A stretch of DNA of 39,560 nucleotides from Ectocarpus siliculosus. Taxonomy: Eukaryota; Sar; Phaeophyceae; Ectocarpales; Ectocarpaceae. This document shows positions 5,501 to 26,752 of the stretch, piece by piece (the first letter of the stretch is position 1; each line of letters begins with the position of its first letter). The stretch spans positions 3,439,861-3,479,420 of the forward strand of contig FN649726.1 in NCBI GenBank assembly GCA_000310025.1. The letters run 5' to 3'. The notes beneath the pieces are model-generated. The model was not told the DNA's origin. It searched no databases and saw nothing but the letters and a program-made list of their open reading frames with translations. A program made the translations under genes and the position numbers.

Positions 5501-8500
5501 ATGCAAGAGCACCAAGACTTCGAGGAAGACGATGATGGTGAGTTGTCGGCGATGGCTTGGGAATCGGCGATACGAGGAAAGAGCGGCCGTGAGATCGCGC
5601 ACCTCCACCAGAGCTGGGCGGCAGCTTTTCTCGCGCGTGGTTCCTTCAACAAAGCCCAGGTTGGGAACAAAATGTATCGGACTGCAGCTGGCTCGGAGGG
5701 GTTGCCATTCATAAATCGCTTGTGCCAAACGTATGTCCCAGCAGGCTTCTCGTGACTTCTTGCTCATGTCGTACATATGGGCTTGGTACAATCCACAGAT
5801 GAACACAGACGGCCTCGCCAAAGGAAGGTGGTCTTGCGTGCACCTGCTTCGATTTAAACCCACACCCTCGTGTCTTCCGACACTACCAAATACAACATAA
5901 CGCAACTCAGGAACACCTCGACCACGCCCTCGAAGCATGGACCGGCTACGACGAGCCCGGCCTCCAGGCCCGCGCATGGTGCCTAAAGGCGTCGTGTAGC
6001 GGCGAGGCCGGCGACTTCTCTGCCGCTGCGGCGAACTTGAAAACTGCCCTAAAGATCGCAGAGGGCACGGGCGACGCCCCTTTGGTGTTATCCGTAATGG
6101 CCAACCGCGCCATCTGCGAGATCCACCTCGGGGACTGCAAGGCCGCCGCAACCCGCTCTCGGCGCGCCTTCATCAGGGCCGAGGCGGAGGGTGGGCCTGA
6201 GACAGTCCTTTTGGCGCACGGTATCCGGTACGTAGGCGTCTCATGGCATAGGCTGGAGACACTGTGGAGTTTCTCTGGTGTTGTCGATGTCGTTGCTGCA
6301 AGTGCAACGCACCCCGGGGGAGCGGGGGGATATCGCCACAGTAGTCAACAGAGGTTCTGACCTTCTTGGCCTGCCCAGGAAGTCGAGGAACAATTATCAT
6401 TCAATGCATATTTAAGCGCGCAACACCACCGCAACTTCGCAGGAGGTATGCACTACGGGTACCAACGCTATTAGAGTACTATCGAGTACATCCATTGGTT
6501 TGGAGAGCCGTTGTTGGGCGACTACGGCACCTGCGGAACTTGGTGGTGGTACAATAGCAGATACTGCTAGATATGTAGATTATCTGGAAACTTACAAAGT
6601 TTACGCCGTTCACTTGGCTAAAGACCCGTCTGGACTGTAAGCCTAAGCTCACAATATCGACCACGGTCACCAGAGCGTGTGGGATGAGGGTTGCGCAGAA
6701 ATTTTTCGGCACTTTTCGTGAAGCTATATGGTAATCTGAATGTAATTTTCCGGGCAGCACAGAAACGGATCTCATCCTATGACGCAACCATACCTCCCCG
6801 AACAACGGCTTTCCAGAGCTGTGGCCGCCCAAGCTGACTGTAAACCAAGCGATCTACCAGGTTCCTGTATTCTACATAGATCGAGTCAGACATGGTGGAA
6901 CTTTTGTCCCATACGCAACAGAGACCACGTGTTCTTACTCAACTTGGAGTGAGTGTTGATTGCAACACCTACAGGCGCTCCTCTCAACTTCCCAGAGGAG
7001 GTAGCAAACGTTTTGAACTCCGGCGTTGAGGCACTGCGGTATATGGTCGAACGCGGAGTGATGTACTCTACACACGCTGTCGACCGGTGGTGTTTCAGCG
7101 GAAGCAATACTATTTTCTTGGTTTCGCGTCGATTTCCCTCATGAAGCGAAAGTACGAGGAGCACAAAGGCGCCAGGAGTACACACCCCGTCAGAAAGAGT
7201 TGACTCATCTTAGCTTTTCATGGTATGGCGTCGAAAGTTGTTTCGCGCACTAAACATGGGAGAGGTGGGCGGAAGCACGCATATCAACTTTGTGCTGGCA
7301 TCAGCGTCATGCCGAGACTGACGTGGAATGCAAAATCGTGGGCCTCACCTGCATTTACGGGAAGAATGGGAAGGGCTAAAGGAAACTTCTGCTGGACAGC
7401 TGTAGAAATGTCTACCTGCACGATACACGAGCCCCACCGCTCCCCATTGAAAAACCTTTTCCCGGAAATGCTTTCCGCACGTACACATCCATTCATCCCG
7501 TATTTACATACATACATGCAATCTGCAACTTTGTCTCCCCAGGGCCATGAGCTACCAAATGACCGGGAACTTCCTGGCAGCATGCAACGAGCACGAGGCC
7601 GCGGCGAAACTTGCCGAACAACGCCAGGTCCACCCGTTAGCACCCGCTTTTGCTTTGGGCATGGAAACCAATTTCGGCATAAGGTAATACGGCGTCATCC
7701 ATGCGCCAGACCCGAAAATCTCGGTGCTGATGATATACCGTAAATGGCCCGAGATTTGGTGGGGATCGGAGAGATGGCACCACCGCCGTACATGGGGGAG
7801 TGATAGGCGCTACAGTGCGGTAGTCCTCTTCACAAGACGAAACAATAGCAAGCCACAGGCGCACATACCGAACAAATCAACGATAAGGAGAGTATGTTGT
7901 CCCGTCGCTGTTCTGGGGTAACTCTGCGGTGCGTCTATCGTCTTGGGGGGCAATTTCACGTGTACACAGCACACGAGGGACCCCTGAGCAGACACTTGCT
8001 GTAGCTGCGTCAAGGGAGAAGTGTTCTTTAAGAGCGTGCGCACCGCATCATGATATAGTTCTAAACCCATCAAACAACGCACGTCGTTGTTCTTCTGTGT
8101 TCTTGTTATGAATATGAAACGAAACCAACGAAACGAACACATACGGCAAGTGACCTTATAGTGCCCTCCGGAGCGGCAAACCGGAGCAAGCTTCGGAGCT
8201 TTTCGAGCGGGCGCTCGAGACCGTACGAAGGGGCGAGGTGGCCGGAGGTGGCGGCGGCGGTGGCGGCGGCAGCGATGACGAAGACGACGATGACGAGTAT
8301 GACGAGGACGAGGACGATGGTGGTGGCGGGAGACCACCCGCGCCGCCGCTGGCCCTGGCTCGCTGCCTGTTTCACGCCGGGGAGGCTAGGCGGCAGAACG
8401 GACAGTTTCGTGCCGCCAACGCTTTTCTAGAGGAGGCGGCCGTTGTTGTTGCTGCGGCCATGGAGTCCTTTTCGGGTGAGCCCCTTCGCACCGGCCTGCC

Positions 8501-10730
8501 AGAATATTTGTCATGCACGATTGCTTTTCGGTCGATTGACTGCAGTGGTGCTCGACATCAAGTATCGGTGCAAGAGCGGTGTTTGGTGCAAGAGCGAATA
8601 CTGAACAGTTGTAGGGGGGTGGGTGGGGGATGAATTAGATTCCGAATACGGTGCCTTTCTTTGGGGCTGTTTGGGTTGAGGTTGATGGTGCCACGGACAA
8701 GCGGCACCGCTGCAGAGTTCACGAGGCCATTCCTTTACACGTTCATGTAGCCCTGCTGTTTTGCTCTCGAAAGCAATGCCCAATCAATGACACCCAACAA
8801 GCATCTCGATCACCTTCCACTACAACAACAGGGCTGTCTCCTTGCAGGAACAACAAACAGTACAAATACAAGACACCTTACCTTGCACACACCTCTGTAG
8901 TTCCGCTCGCGCGCGCGCGATTGCCCTTGTCGGTCTTGTCCTGTCCTCTCGCCGGTCTTCTCCGAAAAAAGCTGCCGAAGCCTCCAGGGTCGACAAGGCG
9001 AAGCGGTCGAAGTGGACCGCGCTCGCCATGGAAGTGGCCAACTCCCGCGGGCTCTGCTTGCTCGCGGAGGCGGCCCAAAGGTTCAGCGGAGAGGTGAGAG
9101 AGACAACCACGGGAAGAGAGGACAACAAAACTTCTCCTGATGCCGCTGCCGCCACCGCCGTGGTAACGACTCCCGGGGAGCGCGCCGGAAGCGTCTCGCT
9201 GACGGCGCCAGAAGCCGCGGGTCGGCGCCGGAGTAGCACGGCGCAAGACGAGCAAGCCACGCGAACCGCCGCAGAGAAAGCGGCGAACCTCATCGCGGCC
9301 GGGTGCAAGGCGGGAGACTTGGGGGCTCACCCGACGCAAAAGATGAACGGTGCCATGCTTGAGGGGCTAGCGTGGTCGCTCGCTGGGCGGGGAAACGCCG
9401 AAGGGGCAAGTTTGTTGTTTCGGGGGTATGCGGTGGGGGGGGGGGTGGCGGGGATGGAAGAGGGTGTCCTAGAAAGCGGGTTCTTTGCGAGCCCGCTCGA
9501 AACTCTAAGTGGTCCCGAGTTGCGGAGAGGGCCTCTTGGAGTCTGTTGATCTGCGTGTGTTGGGCCTTGCCCCACGTGAGTACCCAGCGACTGTCAACAA
9601 AGTCGCGTTCCCGACGCCCCAATGTCGCGTCGCTATCACAAAGGAAAGTGGGAACTAAATCGTGAATGTGCGCCAACGCCCACGTCACCCAGTCGCCTCT
9701 TTCCCCACCCACTTCCCCTAAGCCACACACATACAAGGAGAACTGCACCATGACCGCCGAACGTCCCTGCGGTTTCGCGTCCGCTCCCTTCGCTTCCACC
9801 AACCAATCGGCGTCCGGCTGTGTCGCTGTTTTCGCGGTGCAGGCTGCGGCGATGAAAAGAGCGGAGAGGGGCCTGGAGAAATTCCTCGATCGCGAGCACA
9901 GACGACCCTCGGTGGCGGCTGCGGCGGCCAGCGTCGCCAAGCGGTCGGCGAGCACGGTGGACGACGTTTCCCTCTTGGCGCGAGCCCCGGAAGCCGTCGG
10001 CGTGAGCGTCCCCGCCGGCAGCGAGAACAGCGACCAGATTACGGCAGTGAGTCTTCAAAGGGTGGGCCATCAACAACAACAATCGAAAATCAGCGGCACC
10101 CAGCGGCGGGGCCACCGACAGATGGGGTCTTGGAACGAGTCAAACAAGGCGCCGTAGAACACACCAAAAAATCTCTCTCTGTGCGAGAAAAACCCTCGTT
10201 GTTTACATGTACATCGGTCTACTCCCCCTGTGGTGCCCTGCTGTACTGCTGCAGCTCCAACTCGGCGTTCTGGGCAACCAAGGGCTGGTCGCGAGGGGAG
10301 GGCTTGGGATGGGAGCCGCGTTCTCCACGAGCGCGGTGGCAATAGGCTCCGTCTCGGCGAAGGCCCCGGCGACGGTGGCGGGGGACGCGGCGGGTGCGCT
10401 GGCCGCTGTGGCGGCCGCCCGAACGGCGGCCAAGGCGGCGAACGCCGGGTGGGCAGAGGCTGGATCGCTCGCCAAGAAGCAGCTGACGTATGCGACGAAG
10501 GCGAGTTGATCATGCCTGCCGCTGATATGTTTTGGGAGCGAGGGGGGGGATAGGCAGCCTAACGTTCAGGTCAGGGGGGCCTCTCAGGAGGAAGTGCACA
10601 GGCTGTTGGCTGTTGGATTATACACGGTTGCCTTACTCGGGAGTGCGTCGCGTATCGGTAGGTACTGCGGTTGCCGTGATCGTCTCTCGCCGCCATGCAC
10701 AGTCTCCCCACTCTCTTCTGTCTGTTTCTC

Positions 10731-10817
<87 letters not shown>

Positions 10818-13066
10818 CTCTCTCTTTCTTTCTCTCTCGCTCTCTCTCTAACTCTTTCTCGCTGTCTCTCGTTGTCTCTCTCTCCCGCGCACTTCCCCTC
10901 CACCTCTTTTATGCTGGGCCTACAACGGATTGGTTGATTGGTGTCCAACCCAAAACCAACCGTGTATGTATGTGCGTTCTCTGGGTGACGGGGGCGCGGC
11001 GGGGGGCAGGCGGCGACGGATTCCGCACGGCAGCGCGCGTTGTCTCATGCTCACGCGGGGGCAGTTGACCTTATGACAGGGAGGCCGGTACAAGCGGCGG
11101 AGCGCTTCGAACTCCAGCTTAAAGAAGCTCAAAACGTAAGAGAGAGGGCGAGGGAGAGAGGGGGGGGGAGAGGGAGAGGGAGAGAGCTGGAGAGAAGGAG
11201 AGAAGAAGAGAAGGAAAAAGGCACGCAACGAGGGGCGGGGGGAGGGCGTGGAATCCGCACACACCGATGATCACGACCTAAGAACAGTAAAATTTCAACC
11301 CCACGGTCCCTGATCACAAATAAATTAGGAACGGAACTCGTATAATAGTCGAAAAGCATGGATGGGTGGTCAACGGTCGAACGGCTACATAAATGACAAC
11401 CAAGAAATGAGCACAATCACCTCACCCCGCTCCCGGTCAGATGGATTTTCCTGTGGCGCCAATGTTGGGTGTTGAATCCGCACGGCCAAGATAGTCTAAC
11501 CAGGCAATTTCTTTGGAGATGAAAATACAGGGACGCTAGCTCGTTGTTTCGTCACAAAAACTGTCTGCGGCCGGCGAGTGCCGCGAAACTGCAGGCTGCC
11601 TGTTAGGTTCGCAGGAATCCAGTCAAGAATGCGCCCCGCTTCTCTGTGGTAGTGAGCGTAGACGAAGCGCCTAGAGAGGTTTTGTTGCGAATTATTGCGG
11701 ACAATGTGCGTTTTGTCTATATCTGTACATCGCCCTGCCGACAGCTGGCTTTACCTATGTTTAACCGTACCAGGTACGTACATGGATACGATCGTACTGT
11801 GCGATTCTTGCTCCAGACGACGAATAGAGAATCTGCGGGTTTAATCGCGTTCTGTAATCAATGTGGTAAGCAACGAACGGTGGTATTGGAACCACGCCTG
11901 GTCAGGGCCGAGTGCGCACCGCCTCGCACGTTCCCACGCGGGCACTGAGCCTTCCGTAGAAAAGCCCCCCTTTAGCCTTACCTACAGCAGGCACACAGCA
12001 GCATGCTGCCGTGCTATGATATCTGGAGTGTGTGGCACTGCTCTCCTAAACGTCGGCACTCGCTTCGTCGGTAGATAGGAGTAATCAAGGGCGGAACGAG
12101 CACGATGTGTGATTCATGCACACTCCTCTGGTGCGCTCTCCTCTCCCACACACCTTCTGATCTACTCTACGAACAACGAAAAGCAAGCTCATATCAGACA
12201 CACCCTCCCGCCTGCCCACCCATCCATCACCCTGCACACCTACTACGTACACCACGTATGCATCAGGCTGGTGACCCTATTTTGGAGGCCCTCGCAGAGC
12301 GCAATTTGGCCGACACAAGAGAGGTGGATGAGGACCTGCCTGGGGCACTGGCCCACCTCCGGCGCTGCCGCGCCCTGGCCCAAAGGAGCCGCAACTCCGC
12401 GCTCGAGGCCGACGCCTGCCGGCGGCTATCTTCTGTATACGCGGAGATTGCCGGCCAAAGCGGCGGCGGTGGCGGTGGTATTGATGGGGGTGGAAGAGGG
12501 GGCGGATCGCCGGAGAGAGAGAAGGGTGGTGATCATGGCGACGGTGGTGCTGACGGTGGCGGCGGCACACAAGAGCGCAACCGTTCTGATAGTGGTTCTC
12601 CAGAGCCTGAGGTAAGCTTCGATTTTTATCCAGAGTAAGATGTTCGGACTACTGTGTACCGAAACGCAATCCATTTCTACCGCGCGTGACAAGCAGCGCA
12701 ACCGGTTGGTTTCAAACACCCCCCCGTTCCACCCTGAAACTTCATTCTCTTCGCATATTGAAACGCTGCCATTATCACGCACAGATCGAAATCGAGGAGC
12801 GCGAAGACAGCGATGTCGAATTCTTGAAGTCCACGGCGGCCGACAGAGCCCGCCTGTTTGCCGAGCGTTACGAAACGGCCGTTTTCGGGTTGGAGTGGCC
12901 GGTCAGCAGCGGGAACGGCGGCGAGTTGATCGGCGAAGCGCTCGACGACGACGACGGAGGAGGAGACGAGGAAGCGGGAGACAGAAGAAGAAACAGCAGC
13001 GATAGCGGCGGGGACCGCATCGCGGAGGAGGCTGCGGCGGCCGTGCCGGCTGCTCCTGTCGCCTGA
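5501..13066 (+). CDS. Multi-exon tetratricopeptide-repeat protein of about 885 residues
   Basis: No function can be named; TPR arrays are protein-binding scaffolds. Exons: 5501-5659, 5911-6227, 7543-7635, 8162-8475, 8981-9425 or -9432, 9723-10046, 10255-10500, 11010-11135, 12267-12611 and 12785-13066 (TGA). TPR-like helix pairs include IAHLHQSWAAAFLARGSF, MANRAICEIHLGDCKAA, AMSYQMTGNFLAACNEHEAA, ARCLFHAGEARRQNGQF and GALAHLRRCRALAQRSRN. Gly-, Asp- and Ala-rich linkers interrupt the array: a GGGG-to-acidic run near 8240-8330, a Gly-rich loop near 12465-12570, and an acidic tail near 12945-12985. Phases agree at most junctions. Weak points are the donor of exon five (GTATGC at 9426 is the better site, but GTGGGG at 9433 keeps frame), the acceptors of exons five and six, and the start. 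ATG 5501 follows an in-frame stop at 5468, but an upstream exon is possible. Exon seven seems to use a GC donor at 10501. The boundary between exons three and four may hide a missed exon. Confidence 0.72.
10736..10814 (+). repeat. CT dinucleotide microsatellite inside a TPR-gene intron
   Basis: A perfect CT run of 79 bp, followed by imperfect CT-rich sequence to about 10880. It lies in the intron between 10500 and 11010, on the sense strand of the TPR gene, well upstream of the acceptor at 11008-11009. A GA-rich tract occurs just after the next exon at about 11139-11220. Confidence 0.98.
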
Positions 13067-14917: not shown

Positions 14918-14980
14918 AACCAATCCTAGTCGGATTGGAACCAATCCTAGTCGGATTGGAACCAATCCTAGTCGGATTGG
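14918..14980 (+). repeat. Three tandem copies of a 21-bp palindromic repeat
   Basis: Three identical 21-bp units lie head to tail at 14918-14938, 14939-14959 and 14960-14980, followed by AAC. Each unit contains the arms CCAATCC and GGATTGG around the five-base loop TAGTC, so each can form a seven-bp hairpin. Because 21 is a multiple of three, both strands read through as a seven-residue repeat (NPSRIGT on plus, SNPTRIG on minus). There are no unique spacers, so this is not a CRISPR array. Confidence 0.97.
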
Positions 14981-16428
14981 AACTACCAAAACACGAACAT
15001 AACCAATAGGAGTGACCGTCATTAATGACATTTTCCTGCTGCAACAAAATACATGAGGATAGAATACACAGGCAGGCAAGTTTAATCGCTTTCTTCCTTG
15101 CGCCTCCCTGGAACACTAGCCACAAAAACGCAGCGCGCTCCGCCCGCATGTATGTGCGCCTGGCACGACTATCATATGCCAGAGCGTTCGACTACCTTAC
15201 GAAAGAGGGACAACAAAAGGGTACAAACTCGGCCAGGACATGGAAAATGGGCGATACTGATCGGCTACCAGATCGAACACAGCAGCGCGGCGGCACACGT
15301 TACCAACTCCTACACCGGGAAAGACGAACGGACCCAATGGGACGTGAAAAGGCCCCGCCCAAATAATTCATTACAAAACATACCGACGTCTCCAGCCATC
15401 GCTTTCTAACCCTAACCAACAGTCAATCAACTCAATAAAAATCACAGTTTACTTTTTGTTGTGTCTCGTTTTCGCTCGTTTACACGCAAGGTCAGCAGCC
15501 AAAGTTATTTCAGCCCAACGACAGCGTGTCGGCCAGCGAGCGGACAGACCAATCACCTATCACTCGAACACCGGGTCTCCTGCTCTGTACCTCTTTCGCT
15601 CCTTGTCGCCGCTGCTGCTGGTGCGCACTAACCAGCAGCACGGCATCGAGAATTCAACGTATATGTAAACCTGCGTTTGAAGTGTGCCACGGCAGCACAG
15701 GTTGGACTGTACAAAGCATGCGAGCACTTCTAGCATAGCGCGCGCAACATCAAACAACTCCCCCTCCCCTCCTCATCTATTTCCCCCACTCCATCCTTTC
15801 AGGGAAACACTACAGGGCAGAAAAGAAGCACCAGCAAAACAAATGGATTCCCGCCCCGCATCTGCCTCAGCCACCACGATCACCAGTGCATCACACATCC
15901 ACGTGACCCCCGGCAGGGAAAAATACCCCCCCCACTCTTCATCTTCTACACCCCCCCCCCCGCCCCCAACACTTTTTAGTTGATAAACCTAGGAACTGTA
16001 AGTAATGACCTCGTGGTGTAACCTACCGTCTTAGCACACGAAACTAAAAAGAAACATCCAGATCTCCATGGCAACGCCAAGACGCGCAAGACGAGCTACA
16101 GAAAAAAAAACACAGACAAAGGTTCCTTTGTATCCTTGGTCTGTGCGCACGAACACGCGGTCGCGTGCGCGGCGTGCGAACGCAGCACGTACGTACGTAA
16201 AACGTGAAGAAACCGACGTGCCACTTGCTGCAAACATGCACATGCCGTCGTAAACGCGATGAGAGACACGAGCTATTGTAACTATCTCCTAATTTATCCT
16301 ACCGATAGAGAGAAAATTTTCGAACGGGCGAGGCGTGCAGAGGCGAGAAACGCGGAAACCGTCGTCGCCTGTGGCCGCCTCGTCACACAATACAGGACTA
16401 CCCCCCCCCCCCCCCCCCTCCTCCCCCC
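14981..16428. other. No supported gene; one unassigned open frame
   Basis: A plus frame at about 15180-15366 reads GKWAILIGYQIEHSSAAAH and is moderately coding-like, but I cannot assign it and see no start or clear acceptor. From about 15400 the plus strand becomes A/C-rich. A poly-C tract leads into the assembly gap. Confidence 0.3.
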
Positions 16429-20186: not shown

Positions 20187-23100
20187 CTATCGCTCGGCGC
20201 GCGGCGCCCCGCCGCCGCCCCCGCCCCCGTCGTTGGCTGTCCCGAGGGCGGCGAGCCCCAGCCCCAGAGCGTCCATGTCGAGGAGGTCTGCCCGGGTGGG
20301 GTCCCTGCGCCCGCTTGCCGCGGAGGCGTCCACCGGTCCGACGGCGGGTGAAGGGTTCCGCGAAAGCTGCGTCAGTTTCCGCTGGAGCTGTCCGATCAAG
20401 ACTTCCTGCGAGGGGGGGGGGGGGCAAAGAAGCAATCAAGCCGTGCAAGCTTAGGGGAGGGGGCGACGACTATCAGCCGAAGGGCGGCATTTTCGTCGGA
20501 CGGACCAACTTGGGTCGAGAGCGGCTCTCAAGAATCGTATTCGTACATGTTGTCGGGGGGGCTGAACAGCGGTGCGGAGAGAAGAGGGAGAAAAAAGGGG
20601 CCGCCGTCTTCCAGCTTGGGGAAAAAAGAGCAAAACATACACCGTTGAAGCTATATAACGAGACATGAGTCGACGACCAAAATCTACTACACAACAACTT
20701 TTGCGAAGACAAAATTCCTCCGCAAAGCATGGAACCATCTTCTGCACCCAAGTCCTAGGCGCGCACGAGGGGGGGAGGGAGGGACACAGAAGGAACCAAT
20801 GAGCAAACGACGGACGAACCTGCTCCTCGACTTTTCGCGTCTTCGCTGCCAGCTCCTCCCGAAGGCCCGAGTCATCCGGGTGCCCGCTGCCGCCGCCGCC
20901 GCCGCTTACGTCCCCGCTGCCGCTCCTACCCCCCCTCCTGTCAGCCCCGCCCGTGATCCCCCCCGGGCAGCCCTCGCACCCGCAGCGGCCGTCCATGTCG
21001 TCCAGCATCTCCAGCATCTCCTCGGCGGACGGGCGCTCCTCCGGGACGGTGCGGCACAGGAGCTCCGCGAGCCGGGCGACGGCGGGGCTCCGCTTCGCGA
21101 GGTGCGGCGGGGCGGACCCGCCGGGCTGCCGCATGGCCTGGAAGGCGTCGGCGCGCTCGTGCGTCGTCGTGAAGCAGCAGCAGAGCTCCAGCAGGACAAG
21201 CCCGAGGGAGAACAGGTCGGACCGCACGCCATACCGCCGGCCCTGCAGCTGCTCGGGGGAGGCGTAGGACGCCGTCCCCACCCCGGTCGTGTGGCACTCG
21301 CTCTGCGGCGGGTTCCGCCTCCGAGGCACGATGGCCGCTTCCAAGGGGTCGGGGTTCACCGCCGCTGTAGCGGTGGCGGCACTGTTTCTGCCGCTGTTGC
21401 TGTCATCGTCGCTGGAAAGACCTGTCGTAACCTCTGTCCGGGAGAGCCCGAAGTCTCCGATCTTGAGACAGCCGTCTTCGCCAACGAACACGTTCTCCGG
21501 CTTTTTGTTGAGGATGATGGGTGTCGTCGTGCAGATCATGCGGGAGTTTGGCGGCGTAAGAGGTGAGACGCGGACGAACAACGCCCGAGATTTGACCAGG
21601 ACGGGGGGAAGGTGTGCCGGAAGACGTGAGGCTAGCCACACATAGACTCTGGTTGACATTGTTGTGACGACTTGGTTTCGAGATAACAGTGAACAAACAA
21701 ATTGAATAAATGTCTTGTCAACCGGTGTCGCATGGACAGCGTGCCATCCTTTGCCCAACTACAAGCGACAACCACTATTATAGAGAGCAGAACGGGAAAC
21801 ATCCAACTCCGGCTGCTACTGCTGCTGCCGTACACACACACCAACCGCACGCATGCGACAGGAAGTGTCGTCGCTCACCGCACCCACGAAAAACATGGGC
21901 CACACGGGGGGACAGGGAGTCAGGTCTTATCACATACCACCATTACACACACACCTTCAGGTCCCGGTGTATGATCCCCTTGGAGTGCACGTGCGAAACC
22001 CCTTCGGCGAGCTGCCGGAAGAGATGCAACGCCTCGTGTAGGTCCACGCGCGCCCCCACCCCGCGGGCGCCCCTGCCGTCGCACGACCCCCAGTCCGAGG
22101 AGACCGATCGAGCCGGGGATCCGGCGGCGATCGGCGTCTTCCGCCGACGTTGCTGCTCCCCGGCCTTCGCGGGAGCCGCCGTGCTGAAAGCCTCCTGCTT
22201 GGAGCTCCCTTGGCCGCCCTCGCACTTCCGGCTCGTCTCGCGAGTGGGAGGGGGGCACAGCACGCCCGCTCCGCCGCCGCTGCCGCTGCTGCTGCTGCTG
22301 CTGGCGCCGGAGGACGAGCTTTCCGACGTCCGGTCTGACTCTCCGGAGGAAGCGGAGGTGACGGGGTCCGTCCTCGGAGACGTCGCGGGAGTTCCAAGGT
22401 CGGCCTTGCGGCCGCCGTCGCCCTTGTCGAGGTCGTTCGAGATCAGGACCGCCGGGACCGAGCCCGTGTTGCCGCCGTCGAAGGCGGGTCGGGGGGGTGG
22501 AGACGGCGGCGATCGCGAACAAGCGCGAGCGTCGTCCTCGAACAGGACGCCGCTCCCCGCGCATTCCGAAGACAGCCGCGAGTTACGGTTCTGCAGCCAG
22601 TCCTGGAGCGTCTCGCTCGGGCAGAGCGTCATCTGGATGTACAGGGTGACCTTCAGGGGCACGTTGAAGCAACAACCAGGTATCATAGTTGGGAGTTGGG
22701 GGAGCGGTTCAAAAACTCAAAAACTCGTTTCTTTTCATTCGTTGCTTGTTGTCGTCTCGAACAGTTGTTGCCTCACATGGCCATGGCGGAAGCGTCGAGA
22801 AACCCACGCAAGAATCAGTGATGTGAGTATATTGCGATACGCTTAAGCGAGATCTGTTGCTTCACCAGAAATATGCCACCCCGTCCCGCACTGTTCTTTC
22901 CGGCACTAGCACCATGCACGGCTCCAACAAGTACGTACGCATCTACCCTTGAATTTTCAATTTCGCACCACCATCCATCTCTCTCGGGTTTCATCTTCCA
23001 CGCACAGATACGCATCACACAAGCGTATGGGTAACGGGGGGCGTGGCTAGCCAAGACACCCACCGGGTACTGGACGAGCCTGTCCGGCGACAAGCTGTGC

Positions 23101-26100
23101 CTAGCGATGCGACGCTCCGAGCCACGTCCGCGACCGTCGCCGTTGTCGAGACGGATCCCGCCGCCACGGCCCCCGCCGCTGCTGCCGCCGCTGACCACGT
23201 CCCACTCGCGCCACCCGGCGTTGCTGCCGCCGCCGCTGTCGTCAGAAGAGTCCGCAAGGACGCCCTGGGCAGGGGCAACACTATCGTCGCCGTCACCGTC
23301 CGCGGGAGAGGAAGAGTTCCCGAAGGACACCAGGTCATCCATGTCGATGGACGGGTTACGGAACTGCTCAGACCGCAGCGTCCGCACGGGTGCATGGACC
23401 CGCCTGCGCACGGCGGCGGCGGCGGGGGCGGCCGTGATCCCGGTCCCTCCACCTTCACAAAACCGGGAGGAGGAGGCAGTGGCCGTCGTACCCCCTCCGC
23501 CGCCTCCTATCGAGTCCTCGTCGAAACCCGCGTACGATGACGCTTCGCTCCACCTGCTCGTCTCGCTCTCCACGTCCTCCGCCGACCACCGGCTGAAGCC
23601 CCGGTCGCGGCCGCTGCCGGCGGGAACGATGATGTGCTTCGGAGACCGAACCTGGGGGGACATGGAACCGCGGCGGTCCCCTCGGCGGCTGCCCCAGAGC
23701 AGCCCGCGCCCCCCGCCGTAACCGCCGGCACCAGCACCAGCACCGGTACCAGCTGCTGCGCCTTGATTATGATGGCGCCCGCCGCGCGGCGGGCCCCTCC
23801 TCGTGGCGCCGAACTCCGCGTCGCCGTCGAAACCCCCGTCGCTCTCCGCACCCCAGCCCCACCCGGAGCCGGAGCCGGACGCCGAGTTTCCCGACCGTAC
23901 CATGGTCTCCAGCCCCTTGATGAGCTTCGACTGCATGTGGGCCGGCACCAGAGCGTCCATGCGATCGCGGAGGGAGACGTCCGCGCTCGCGCCCGCGCCC
24001 ACCGCCCCCGCCCCCGCGCCCACCGCCGCCGCAGCGGCGGTGGCGGTGGCAGTGGCGGCGGTGTTGGGGTCGCCACCGCCGCCGCCGTGAGGGTAGCCCA
24101 TGCCGTTTTCCACCCAGCTGCTCTCCAGCCAGGAGGTATGGTAGCGGACGATGTTCTTGTGGTCGAGCTGGGCCAGGCACTGGACCTCCCGCATCACGGC
24201 CTGCGCCCGGGGATTGGACACGCTGGTCCCGCGGAATACCACCTTCTTGATGGCGTACCTGTTATGGGACGCACGTGTTAAGGAGCCGGGGGAGAAGAAA
24301 GGGCACGGAGAGATGGGTATAGTCATGGCTTATGGCAATATGTCACGACACGTTACTTGTTCGAAGCGTTGAGCAAGTGGTGCCCCCTGTGTGCAAGCAC
24401 CGCGGACAGAGGCTTTCTCGAACGACTACAAGCATTGGGAGTTATTTTTTCCTCCTTGGTTCTCACCTCGTGCCATCCAAGCGGTGGCGCGTGCGGTAGA
24501 CGTCTCCGAACGAACCCCTCGCGATCAAGCCCTCTTCGTCGAAATCCCGCAAGTACCTAGATACACACACGCGGTACCGTCGTACACGTGCAGCGCAATG
24601 GTACGGAAGCGAGCAAAAGAAAACGGTGGAAAGTCAGACGGAAACTCAACCAAGTGCCGAGACATAAAAAGTTTGGTAAAAAGTGTTGAATTAATAGAAC
24701 GTAACCTAACTGTCTCGCAACCCTCAGCGAAAGCGTATCCTACTATTTACCACATTCAGGTGAGCCATGCTCAACTGAAAGCCACAAAAATGCAAAAGTA
24801 GTACACCGCACACACTATTGTAGAACAAGCAAGTGTTCGTGTTGTACATCCCTGTCCGTTCGAGCGTTCACACCTCGACGTGCCGAGCACCCGTAACCCT
24901 AGCGGCGTCGCCGACCGCCTGTCCCTGTCCACGCCATCGCCCCCGCCGCTCGCCTCCGCCGCCGCCGCCGCCGCACGCGCCGGCGGTCCACTCGGCCACG
25001 CGCCCAACAGCAACGGGTCGCCCTGTTGGCCCCCGCGGTTAATCTGGCGCCGCACGGCCTCGACGACGGCGGCGCGATCGGGAGGCGTGCGGTACGAGGG
25101 AAGGGCCACGGGGGGTACGAAGCCCAGGTCGAAGAGGAACTGGATGGAGTCCAGGACCTTCGCCTCGTAGAGCACCAGCACCTTTTGCGTGAATACGTGG
25201 GACAGAGCGACGCAAACAAGCAAAATGGTTATGCAAAGTCATCAGTACTGCTTTACACTGCTCATGTAGCTCATAAGGTCGTGTGTGTGTTATGTGCTCT
25301 TCCCCTCTTTATACGCCACGCTAAGCGAAGGAGATGCGTGAAATGTACATGTACTACAAGTATATATTTACTACAAAATTAATCAATATCTGAACGGTGT
25401 TGGGTTGTTCCGAAGACCGAAGAAGCGACGGGAAAAGCGAGCAACCGCAGGAGATCGCAGTTTCTCCGGCAACGGACACGCAGCGCGCTGCGCGGGTTGT
25501 GGACACACGATTGAAAACATCGTTGAAGTCGCCTCTCGCGAACAACACCACTTATGTTTATATTTAATCGAAAGTCTGCGATCACCCATTCCCTTTCACA
25601 GCAAGGAAAACATCTATCTGCTGCTACAGCCATGTATGTCGCCGTGGCCCGCCTCTGACGCTGCAAGCACGTCGCACGTCAAGCTAGCTAAGCAACGCTC
25701 CTTGTTGCTGAGCAACCCAACGCGGTTGATCACAAGGCACACGCTCACGCACACCCACTGGTTTGTTTGGGACCAGCCACCACAGCAGTAGTCAACACAA
25801 AGACACACCAAAGAACAAACCCTTTCGCTTTCGCGTCCAAAACATCAAAATATGCCGCTGCTGTTGCTGTTACGCACCCAAAAAGAGCGAGCCCCCCCCC
25901 CGTGCCTACCTGCTCAACGAACGTCCTGGGCGTGGCGTCATGCTCGGAGCACATGTGCGCGAGCAGCATGGTTAACAGAATCTGTCTCTCGGCGTCGAGG
26001 CGGACGCGCTCGACCCCGTCCGCCGTGCCACCGTGATCCGCGCCGCTGCTTGCAGCCGTAGCAGCACCAGGAGCTTGCCCTGCTGCAGAGCCGCTCGCCG

Positions 26101-26275
26101 CCGCTGCCGCCGCCGCCGCCGCCACCGCCACCGCTGCTGATTTTCCTCCGCCTCCTGCACCCTCCGCTGCCGCTGAGGCTGAGCTGGCCCCGAGCTGCTG
26201 CCGCTCCAGCTTTCCCTGCCGCAGCAGGATTTCTTCATCCACGGAGCGATCAGATAGATCCGATAGTTGACGCAA
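20187..26275 (-). CDS. EIF2AK1: HRI-like eIF2-alpha kinase, seven exons, 5' end incomplete
   Basis: Kinases of this family phosphorylate eIF2-alpha and slow translation initiation under stress. Exons (minus): about 26275-25910, 25181-24874, 24556-24467, 24258-23064, 22650-21955, 21500-20820 and 20405-20187 (TAG); every junction agrees in phase, giving about 1,185 residues. In order: a helical segment RQILLTMLLAHMCSEHDATP with KVLDSIQFLFDLGF, like the HRI amino domain; TSRYLRDFDEEGLIARGSFG, the HRI-type entry to the P-loop; DGTRYAIKK with the catalytic Lys; MREVQCLAQLDHKNIVRYHT with the helix-C Glu; a Gly/Ser-rich insert; VTLYIQMTLCPSETLQDWL; a second insert; HRDLKPENVF; KIGDFGLSR; GTASYASPEQL and SDLFSLGLVLLEL. 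The tail LAAKTRKVEEQEVLIGQLQ forms a coiled coil as in HRI. PERK and GCN2 are less likely: no membrane segment, RWD or HisRS-like domain is visible. No in-frame ATG occurs in the first exon; a stop at 26333-26335 and a six-codon CAG run precede it, so the start lies in an unplaced exon. Heme binding cannot be judged. Confidence 0.92.
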
Positions 26276-26752
26276 GAGAGGGACAAACCCTTCATGATGC
26301 TGCTGCTGCTGCTGCTGCCCACCTCCTGCTTTTCATGAGGAGTAGAGCACAACGCACAACGGATATATTTGTTATCACCCCATCACCAGAAGCATCCAAG
26401 AGGAGAAAGGAAGGGGGGGAGGGAGGGGGGGGGGGGGGCAAAGAGCTCGATGCCACGGCGAGCGTTGTGCTCGACTTCCATGGATGGGTTGGGCGGCAGA
26501 GCGCGAAGGGTGAAGGATGGGCGGTGAAAAAATTGCGCGAATCGTGTGAGGGGTGATTTTTCCATTTTTCACTGGGTTGGAGAGAAGAAGCGGCGTTCAT
26601 GTTATTCTTACCCAGGGCAAACCAACTTGTTTTTGGATATTTTTGTCGAGCTACTAACACAATCGACCCCTCGCGCGCGGCAGCGTGAACGGGAGAGCGT
26701 AGCCATGGAGTGTTCGCCAAGAGCGGAGGGGAGAACGCTCTACTGATACCAG
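26276..26752. other. Shared 5' region between the kinase and a divergent candidate gene
   Basis: Contains a CAG/CTG repeat at about 26300-26318, probably translated as Gln in the kinase, and candidate minus-strand acceptors near 26326. A G run lies at about 26416-26438. A minus-strand ATG at 26706 opens MATLSRSRCRAR and meets a GTAAGA donor-like site near 26611, but its phase does not match the kinase exon, so I did not attach it. Confidence 0.35.

Follow-up and report, generated by a model that had tools for sequence, protein, structure and literature searches.

A putative HRI-branch eIF2-alpha kinase in the brown alga Ectocarpus siliculosus with counterparts to few of the heme ligands of human HRI

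Does one of the eIF2-alpha kinases of a brown alga belong to the HRI (EIF2AK1) branch, and if so, is it likely to be regulated by heme? The question is raised by a stretch of Ectocarpus siliculosus DNA of 39,560 nucleotides (hereafter the window, in whose coordinates all positions in the gene are given), for which an initial annotation made from the sequence letters proposed an HRI-type kinase. In their passages on the distribution of HRI, earlier papers place it in S. pombe and many vertebrates and call it absent from plants and protists (PMC5025754), have it arise with flatworms and nematodes (PMC5851622), or list it in vertebrates, Anopheles, Schizosaccharomyces, and sea urchin (PMC3359775). 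The table of one review labels the protist eIF2-alpha kinases TgIF2K-B and TcK3 as HRI-like and PK4 as PERK/HRI-like (PMC13076163), and these we set beside the algal kinase by description only. Excerpts of two further papers describe Entamoeba kinases as closer to PKR/PERK (PMC9241534) and give two oomycetes five PEK-type kinases each, with no subfamily named in those lines (PMC3019232). Among the open-licence PMC papers listed by our searches, none was on an HRI in a stramenopile; automatic EIF2AK1-like annotations may exist.

The gene is real and looks intact. It occupies positions 20187-26329 on the minus strand, where seven exons give 1202 codons in one frame with a single terminal TAG stop, and its six introns are all GT-AG, phase-compatible, and 208 to 728 bases long. 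The seven phase-consistent exons originally proposed are therefore borne out, with the strand now fixed as minus and the frame of exon 1 extended past 26275 to about 26329. The exons are as follows:

25910..26329, minus strand: exon 1, residues 1-140 (open frame to about 26329, GT donor, phase fits exon 2; 5' border approximate)
24874..25181, minus strand: exon 2, residues 141-242 (GT-AG, phase fits)
24467..24556, minus strand: exon 3, start of the kinase N-lobe and glycine loop (GT-AG, phase, HRI alignment)
23064..24258, minus strand: exon 4, N-lobe with the catalytic Lys and first long insert (GT-AG, phase, HRI alignment)
21955..22650, minus strand: exon 5, hinge, second insert, helix E, and HRDLK (GT-AG, phase, HRI alignment)
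20820..21500, minus strand: exon 6, DFG, activation loop, helix G, and the remaining C-lobe (GT-AG, phase, HRI alignment)
20187..20405, minus strand: exon 7, tail and TAG stop (AG acceptor, phase, stop)

Exons 2-7 have a third-position GC of 0.83-0.89 and exon 1 one of 0.65; intron GC lies at 0.46-0.55. In exon 1, a different frame is favoured by a codon-usage scan whose training set was exons 2-7, and no in-frame ATG occurs upstream of its helical segment. Between 26300 and 33000, a codon scan of the minus strand for a start exon peaked at 18.4 bits versus 29.0 in the plus-strand control. Because the modelled 1202 residues begin without a start codon, a sensor or membrane segment could lie upstream; within those residues, no strong hydrophobic stretch was found outside the kinase core. 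A pseudogene or a wrongly joined model would fit the start codon not found in the model, the weak exon 1 frame, and exon junctions known from genomic sequence alone, but it is hardly credible given an open frame of this length, six in-phase GT-AG introns, intact catalytic motifs, and the high third-position GC of exons 2-7.

Compared with 177,635 distinct PDB sequences, the protein best matched human HRI (9rhh; E 4.8e-51, 177 bits), followed by PERK (3.5e-40, 141 bits), GCN2 (7.7e-35, 123 bits), and PKR (2.7e-32, 115 bits). There were 2170 matches at E <= 0.001, and the top 20 among the best 60 of these 2170, which we examined, were all HRI, PERK, GCN2, or PKR chains; Pfam found kinase families only in the 1202-residue protein. 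The glycine loop, catalytic Lys, HRDLKP-N-F, and DFGL are conserved relative to human HRI, PERK, GCN2, and PKR and to yeast GCN2. Judged by this core, nearest to known members and with its catalytic motifs intact, the protein is a member of the eIF2-alpha kinase family, and the product should work as such a kinase; on this point the initial annotation is confirmed by matches to solved eIF2-alpha kinases far beyond chance. TSRYL, YASPEQL, and SDLFSLG, which it had cited, together with the two protein ends, as a combination that PERK or GCN2 would not give, all occur in the spliced product, but they are less diagnostic than claimed because SRYL is also found in PERK and SRY in GCN2. The following features were placed in the core:

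21288..21290, minus strand: Thr974, aligned with T488 of HRI (HTTGVGT versus HTSRVGT)
21147..21167, minus strand: helix G TTHERAD, the expected eIF2-alpha docking site (T-x-x-E conserved across the aligned eIF2-alpha kinases)
23082..24104, borders approximate, minus strand: low-complexity insert of about 340 residues between kinase strands (a gap in the HRI, PERK, and GCN2 alignments)
22060..22575, borders approximate, minus strand: second insert, of about 170 residues, before helix E and absent from human HRI (alignment)

The T-x-x-E of helix G is what we take to be the eIF2-alpha docking motif, and the R-x-x-x-D pair, presumably a dimer contact as in PKR, is present as SRYLRD in the sequence alignment. 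T488 of HRI is described as a critical autophosphorylation site in the relevant section of a recent review (PMC13181343). About 130 residues follow the kinase domain, with no Pfam match and no HisRS-like domain among them. Human HRI, to which the core is closest, shares the inter-strand insert of the N-lobe and the activation-loop Thr with the algal kinase; unlike it, the human protein has no second insert of about 170 residues and is about half as long (630 versus 1202 residues).

Membership of the kinase core in the HRI branch is moderately supported by these comparisons and by those that follow. Core identity is 46.1% to HRI (124/269), 40.4% to PERK (107/265), 38.7% to PKR (98/253), and 36.7% to human GCN2 (97/264); with the GCN2 of the alga itself it is 40.7% (96/236). 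Residues common to the algal kinase and one family alone number 27 for HRI, 11 for PERK, 9 for PKR, and 7 for GCN2; as a control, the alga's GCN2 has 28 exclusive residues in common with GCN2, 11 with HRI, 10 with PERK, and 6 with PKR. When the 248 shared columns were resampled in 5000 draws, the nearest kinase was HRI in 4890, PERK in 89, and PKR in 21. Six tree runs joined the algal kinase to the HRI branch with UFBoot values of 91-97 and SH-aLRT values of 93.8-97.7; these trees held seven to nine sequences with human HRI as the single HRI sequence, so long-branch effects are possible. An AU test of eight topologies favoured HRI as sister (0.962), while trees with PKR as sister (0.059, 0.098), on the GCN2 stem (0.11), and on the PERK+PKR stem (0.095) were retained and are disfavoured only; the more cautious SH test rejected, among the eight, the tree with the alga's own GCN2 alone. 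The core thus proves nearest to HRI, as first suggested, by identity, exclusive residues, and small-set trees, and on this small sequence set it did not group with PERK or GCN2.

Outside the core, likeness to HRI at both protein ends is no more than suggestive, and an amino-terminal HRI domain is doubtful. Three segments carry it:

25928..25990, minus strand: stretch resembling the first helix of the amino-terminal domain of HRI, in which His125 aligns with H75 (weak pairwise likeness)
20820..20861, minus strand: coiled-coil-like tail, exon 6 part (pairwise likeness to the HRI tail)
20355..20405, minus strand: coiled-coil-like tail, exon 7 part (pairwise likeness to the HRI tail)

Residues 116-134 (19 residues) align weakly and without gaps to human HRI 66-84, and shuffled sequences scored equally well or better in 41 of 2000 trials for residues 101-240 and in 75 of 2000 for residues 1-240. 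The tail gives a weak ungapped match of 22 residues to the HRI coiled coil (19/2000 shuffles equal or better). A piecewise phmmer comparison of two human HRI pieces with four algal pieces, at a search space of one, returned 0.0027 and 0.0098 for the two end pairs expected to match and 0.099 or worse for the other reported pairs; full-length phmmer with human HRI at a search space of 20,000 reported four kinase pieces and neither end. The human HRI end sequences used in these comparisons are assumed to be correct. In a global alignment the amino-terminal segment came out of register, free end gaps having let it slide, and the human HRI amino-terminal piece run against PDB gave one row at chance level (E 1). 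The HRI amino-terminal domain PF22949 had no match in the full protein, residues 1-240, an 83-residue piece, or three splice forms, whereas the human HRI control scored 100.7 bits. Of the ends read by the initial annotation as an HRI domain and a coiled coil, pairwise likeness survives, weakly, at both, and the profile search it proposed for the amino-terminal 250 residues, run with Pfam on residues 1-240, found no HRI domain. Genome-wide, PF22949 gave no match either, which is uninformative with the domain split by an intron here and 14 control genomes silent; the RWD profile PF05773 was uninformative in the same way.

Heme ligands and predicted ligands of HRI are given as H75, H119, H120, C411-P412, and C553-P554 in the relevant section of a 2026 review (PMC13181343), and an excerpt of another paper supports H119/H120 as ligands and mentions C411 (PMC12235045). 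In our hand alignment the counterpart of H75 is His125, and H119, H120, C411, and C553 have no counterparts in the algal kinase. By eye, Pro-Pro stands at the H119/H120 positions; the insert of about 170 residues replaces the C411 stretch, and Ser takes the C553 position. His125 and His130 are the only histidines within residues 101-240, and Cys-Pro pairs occur elsewhere in the protein, at 681, 803, and 1081. Mammalian-style heme control of the algal kinase accordingly appears doubtful, and classical heme control is probably absent. Because only H75 among the ligands has a counterpart, we file the gene as HRI-branch or HRI-like and not as heme-regulated HRI, so that "HRI-type" holds for the kinase lineage and does not extend to heme sensing.

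Two other placements have to be weighed against an HRI-branch kinase. A stramenopile- or protist-specific eIF2-alpha kinase near but outside HRI, with its HRI likeness retained from ancestral sequence and its regulation unrelated, would suit the several stem placements that the AU test leaves standing, the failed amino-terminal profile match, the absence of most heme ligands, and the five PEK-type kinases of oomycetes, whose subfamily the excerpt does not state (PMC3019232). We nevertheless think it unlikely, since HRI-exclusive residues outnumber those of every other family and reach the level that a true GCN2 shows against GCN2, tree support is 91-97, and the likeness at both ends, though weak, is correctly positioned. 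A PERK-type kinase, with its endoplasmic reticulum part in upstream exons outside the model, seems very improbable. PERK shares the eIF2-alpha kinase core at the identity given above, LQDWL of the alga resembles LKDWM of PERK, and the luminal and membrane parts of PERK, absent from the modelled 1202 residues, could be sought upstream of a model that has no start exon; yet the AU test rejects both PERK-sister trees tried (0.009, 0.018), and the minus strand upstream to 33000 stays at or below the 18.4 bits noted above, under its plus-strand control. Union with the alga's own GCN2 was likewise rejected by the AU test (2.6e-6); human GCN2 shares the eIF2-alpha kinase core, and the alga has a separate GCN2.

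We therefore favour, as the likely reading, an HRI-branch eIF2-alpha kinase, presumably cytosolic, that would dimerise under stress, autophosphorylate, phosphorylate eIF2-alpha, and slow translation. Some stress would bring about dimerisation; the activation loop would then be autophosphorylated at Thr974, helix G would dock eIF2-alpha, and phosphorylation of the equivalent of its Ser51 would slow translation, presumably in the cytosol. Because most heme ligands are missing, a signal other than heme is favoured, which may be oxidative, proteotoxic, or organelle stress and not mammalian-style heme release.

Partners for such a pathway are encoded in the same genome, which we searched as 189 Mb in 492 contigs, with the gene itself on contig C1. 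The eIF2-alpha encoded there has an intact target site (SELSRRRIRS) and carries GMILLSELSRRRIRSINKL. A separate GCN2 lies on another contig (C14:2948464-2957360) in nine BLAST pieces, one of them HisRS-like; its catalytic loop (L057/L058) reads HRDLTPPN versus HRDLKP or NRDLKP in the other aligned kinases. Genome searches gave 16 matches with the algal core as query (5 in the same gene), 12 with PERK (1 in the same gene), 19 with yeast GCN2, and 23 with human GCN2, and the loci translated, a part of these matches, were other kinases except for the GCN2 on C14. The exon of that GCN2 ranked 9th with the human GCN2 query and last of 19 with the yeast query; because a true GCN2 exon ranks so low, these searches may have passed over additional paralogues or a PERK gene broken up by introns. 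With the PERK query no PERK was recognised, in searches where intron-broken genes rank low. Among the other kinases, one frame (L003, C476:41298-41735, plus strand) continues into a part that looks RING-finger-like by eye, and three near-alike paralogues (L006 on C25, L009 on C10, and L011 on C29) each open with DERSELT/DERTELT-W-EIDY. Two scans of viral contigs found no relatives of the kinase. The scan of bacterial and archaeal contigs yielded 8 loci from 41 stretches, all in bacterial records, and human HRI was the best match of none of the 8.

If a brown alga has a kinase of the HRI branch, the origin of that branch would lie closer to the base of the eukaryotes, and the integrated stress response of these seaweeds would have a second arm beside GCN2. 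The HRI branch may thus have a longer history and more variety than has been assumed, and if the kinase belongs to it, its lack of most heme ligands could be used to test which function of HRI came first. Tentatively, and as a possibility that we do not hold to be the probable one, HRI could be an ancient eukaryotic kinase that predates the animal-fungal lineage and was kept in brown algae, with the original HRI sensing another stress and heme control through H119/H120 and Cys-Pro added later in the animal-fungal line.

Brown algae are rich in EsV-1-7 motifs, which are rare in other organisms. The corresponding profile (PF19114) matched the genome at least 150 times (150 of 880 candidates were scored) and had no match in 14 control genomes; the motifs occur on many contigs, often in tandem within a single frame (as on C30, C45, C476, and C29), and their abundance supports the brown-algal host supposed by the initial annotation. 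Elsewhere in the window, an open frame at 5803-6357 on the plus strand belongs to a neighbouring gene that is not annotated and encodes tetratricopeptide repeats (TPR_12, E 3.7e-10); of the 22 long frames scanned, only this one matched Pfam. At 14918-14983 a 21-base unit, AACCAATCCTAGTCGGATTGG, which contains an inverted repeat, is perfectly repeated in tandem for 3.1 copies, and at 10711-10884 lies a microsatellite rich in CT, about 174 bases long.
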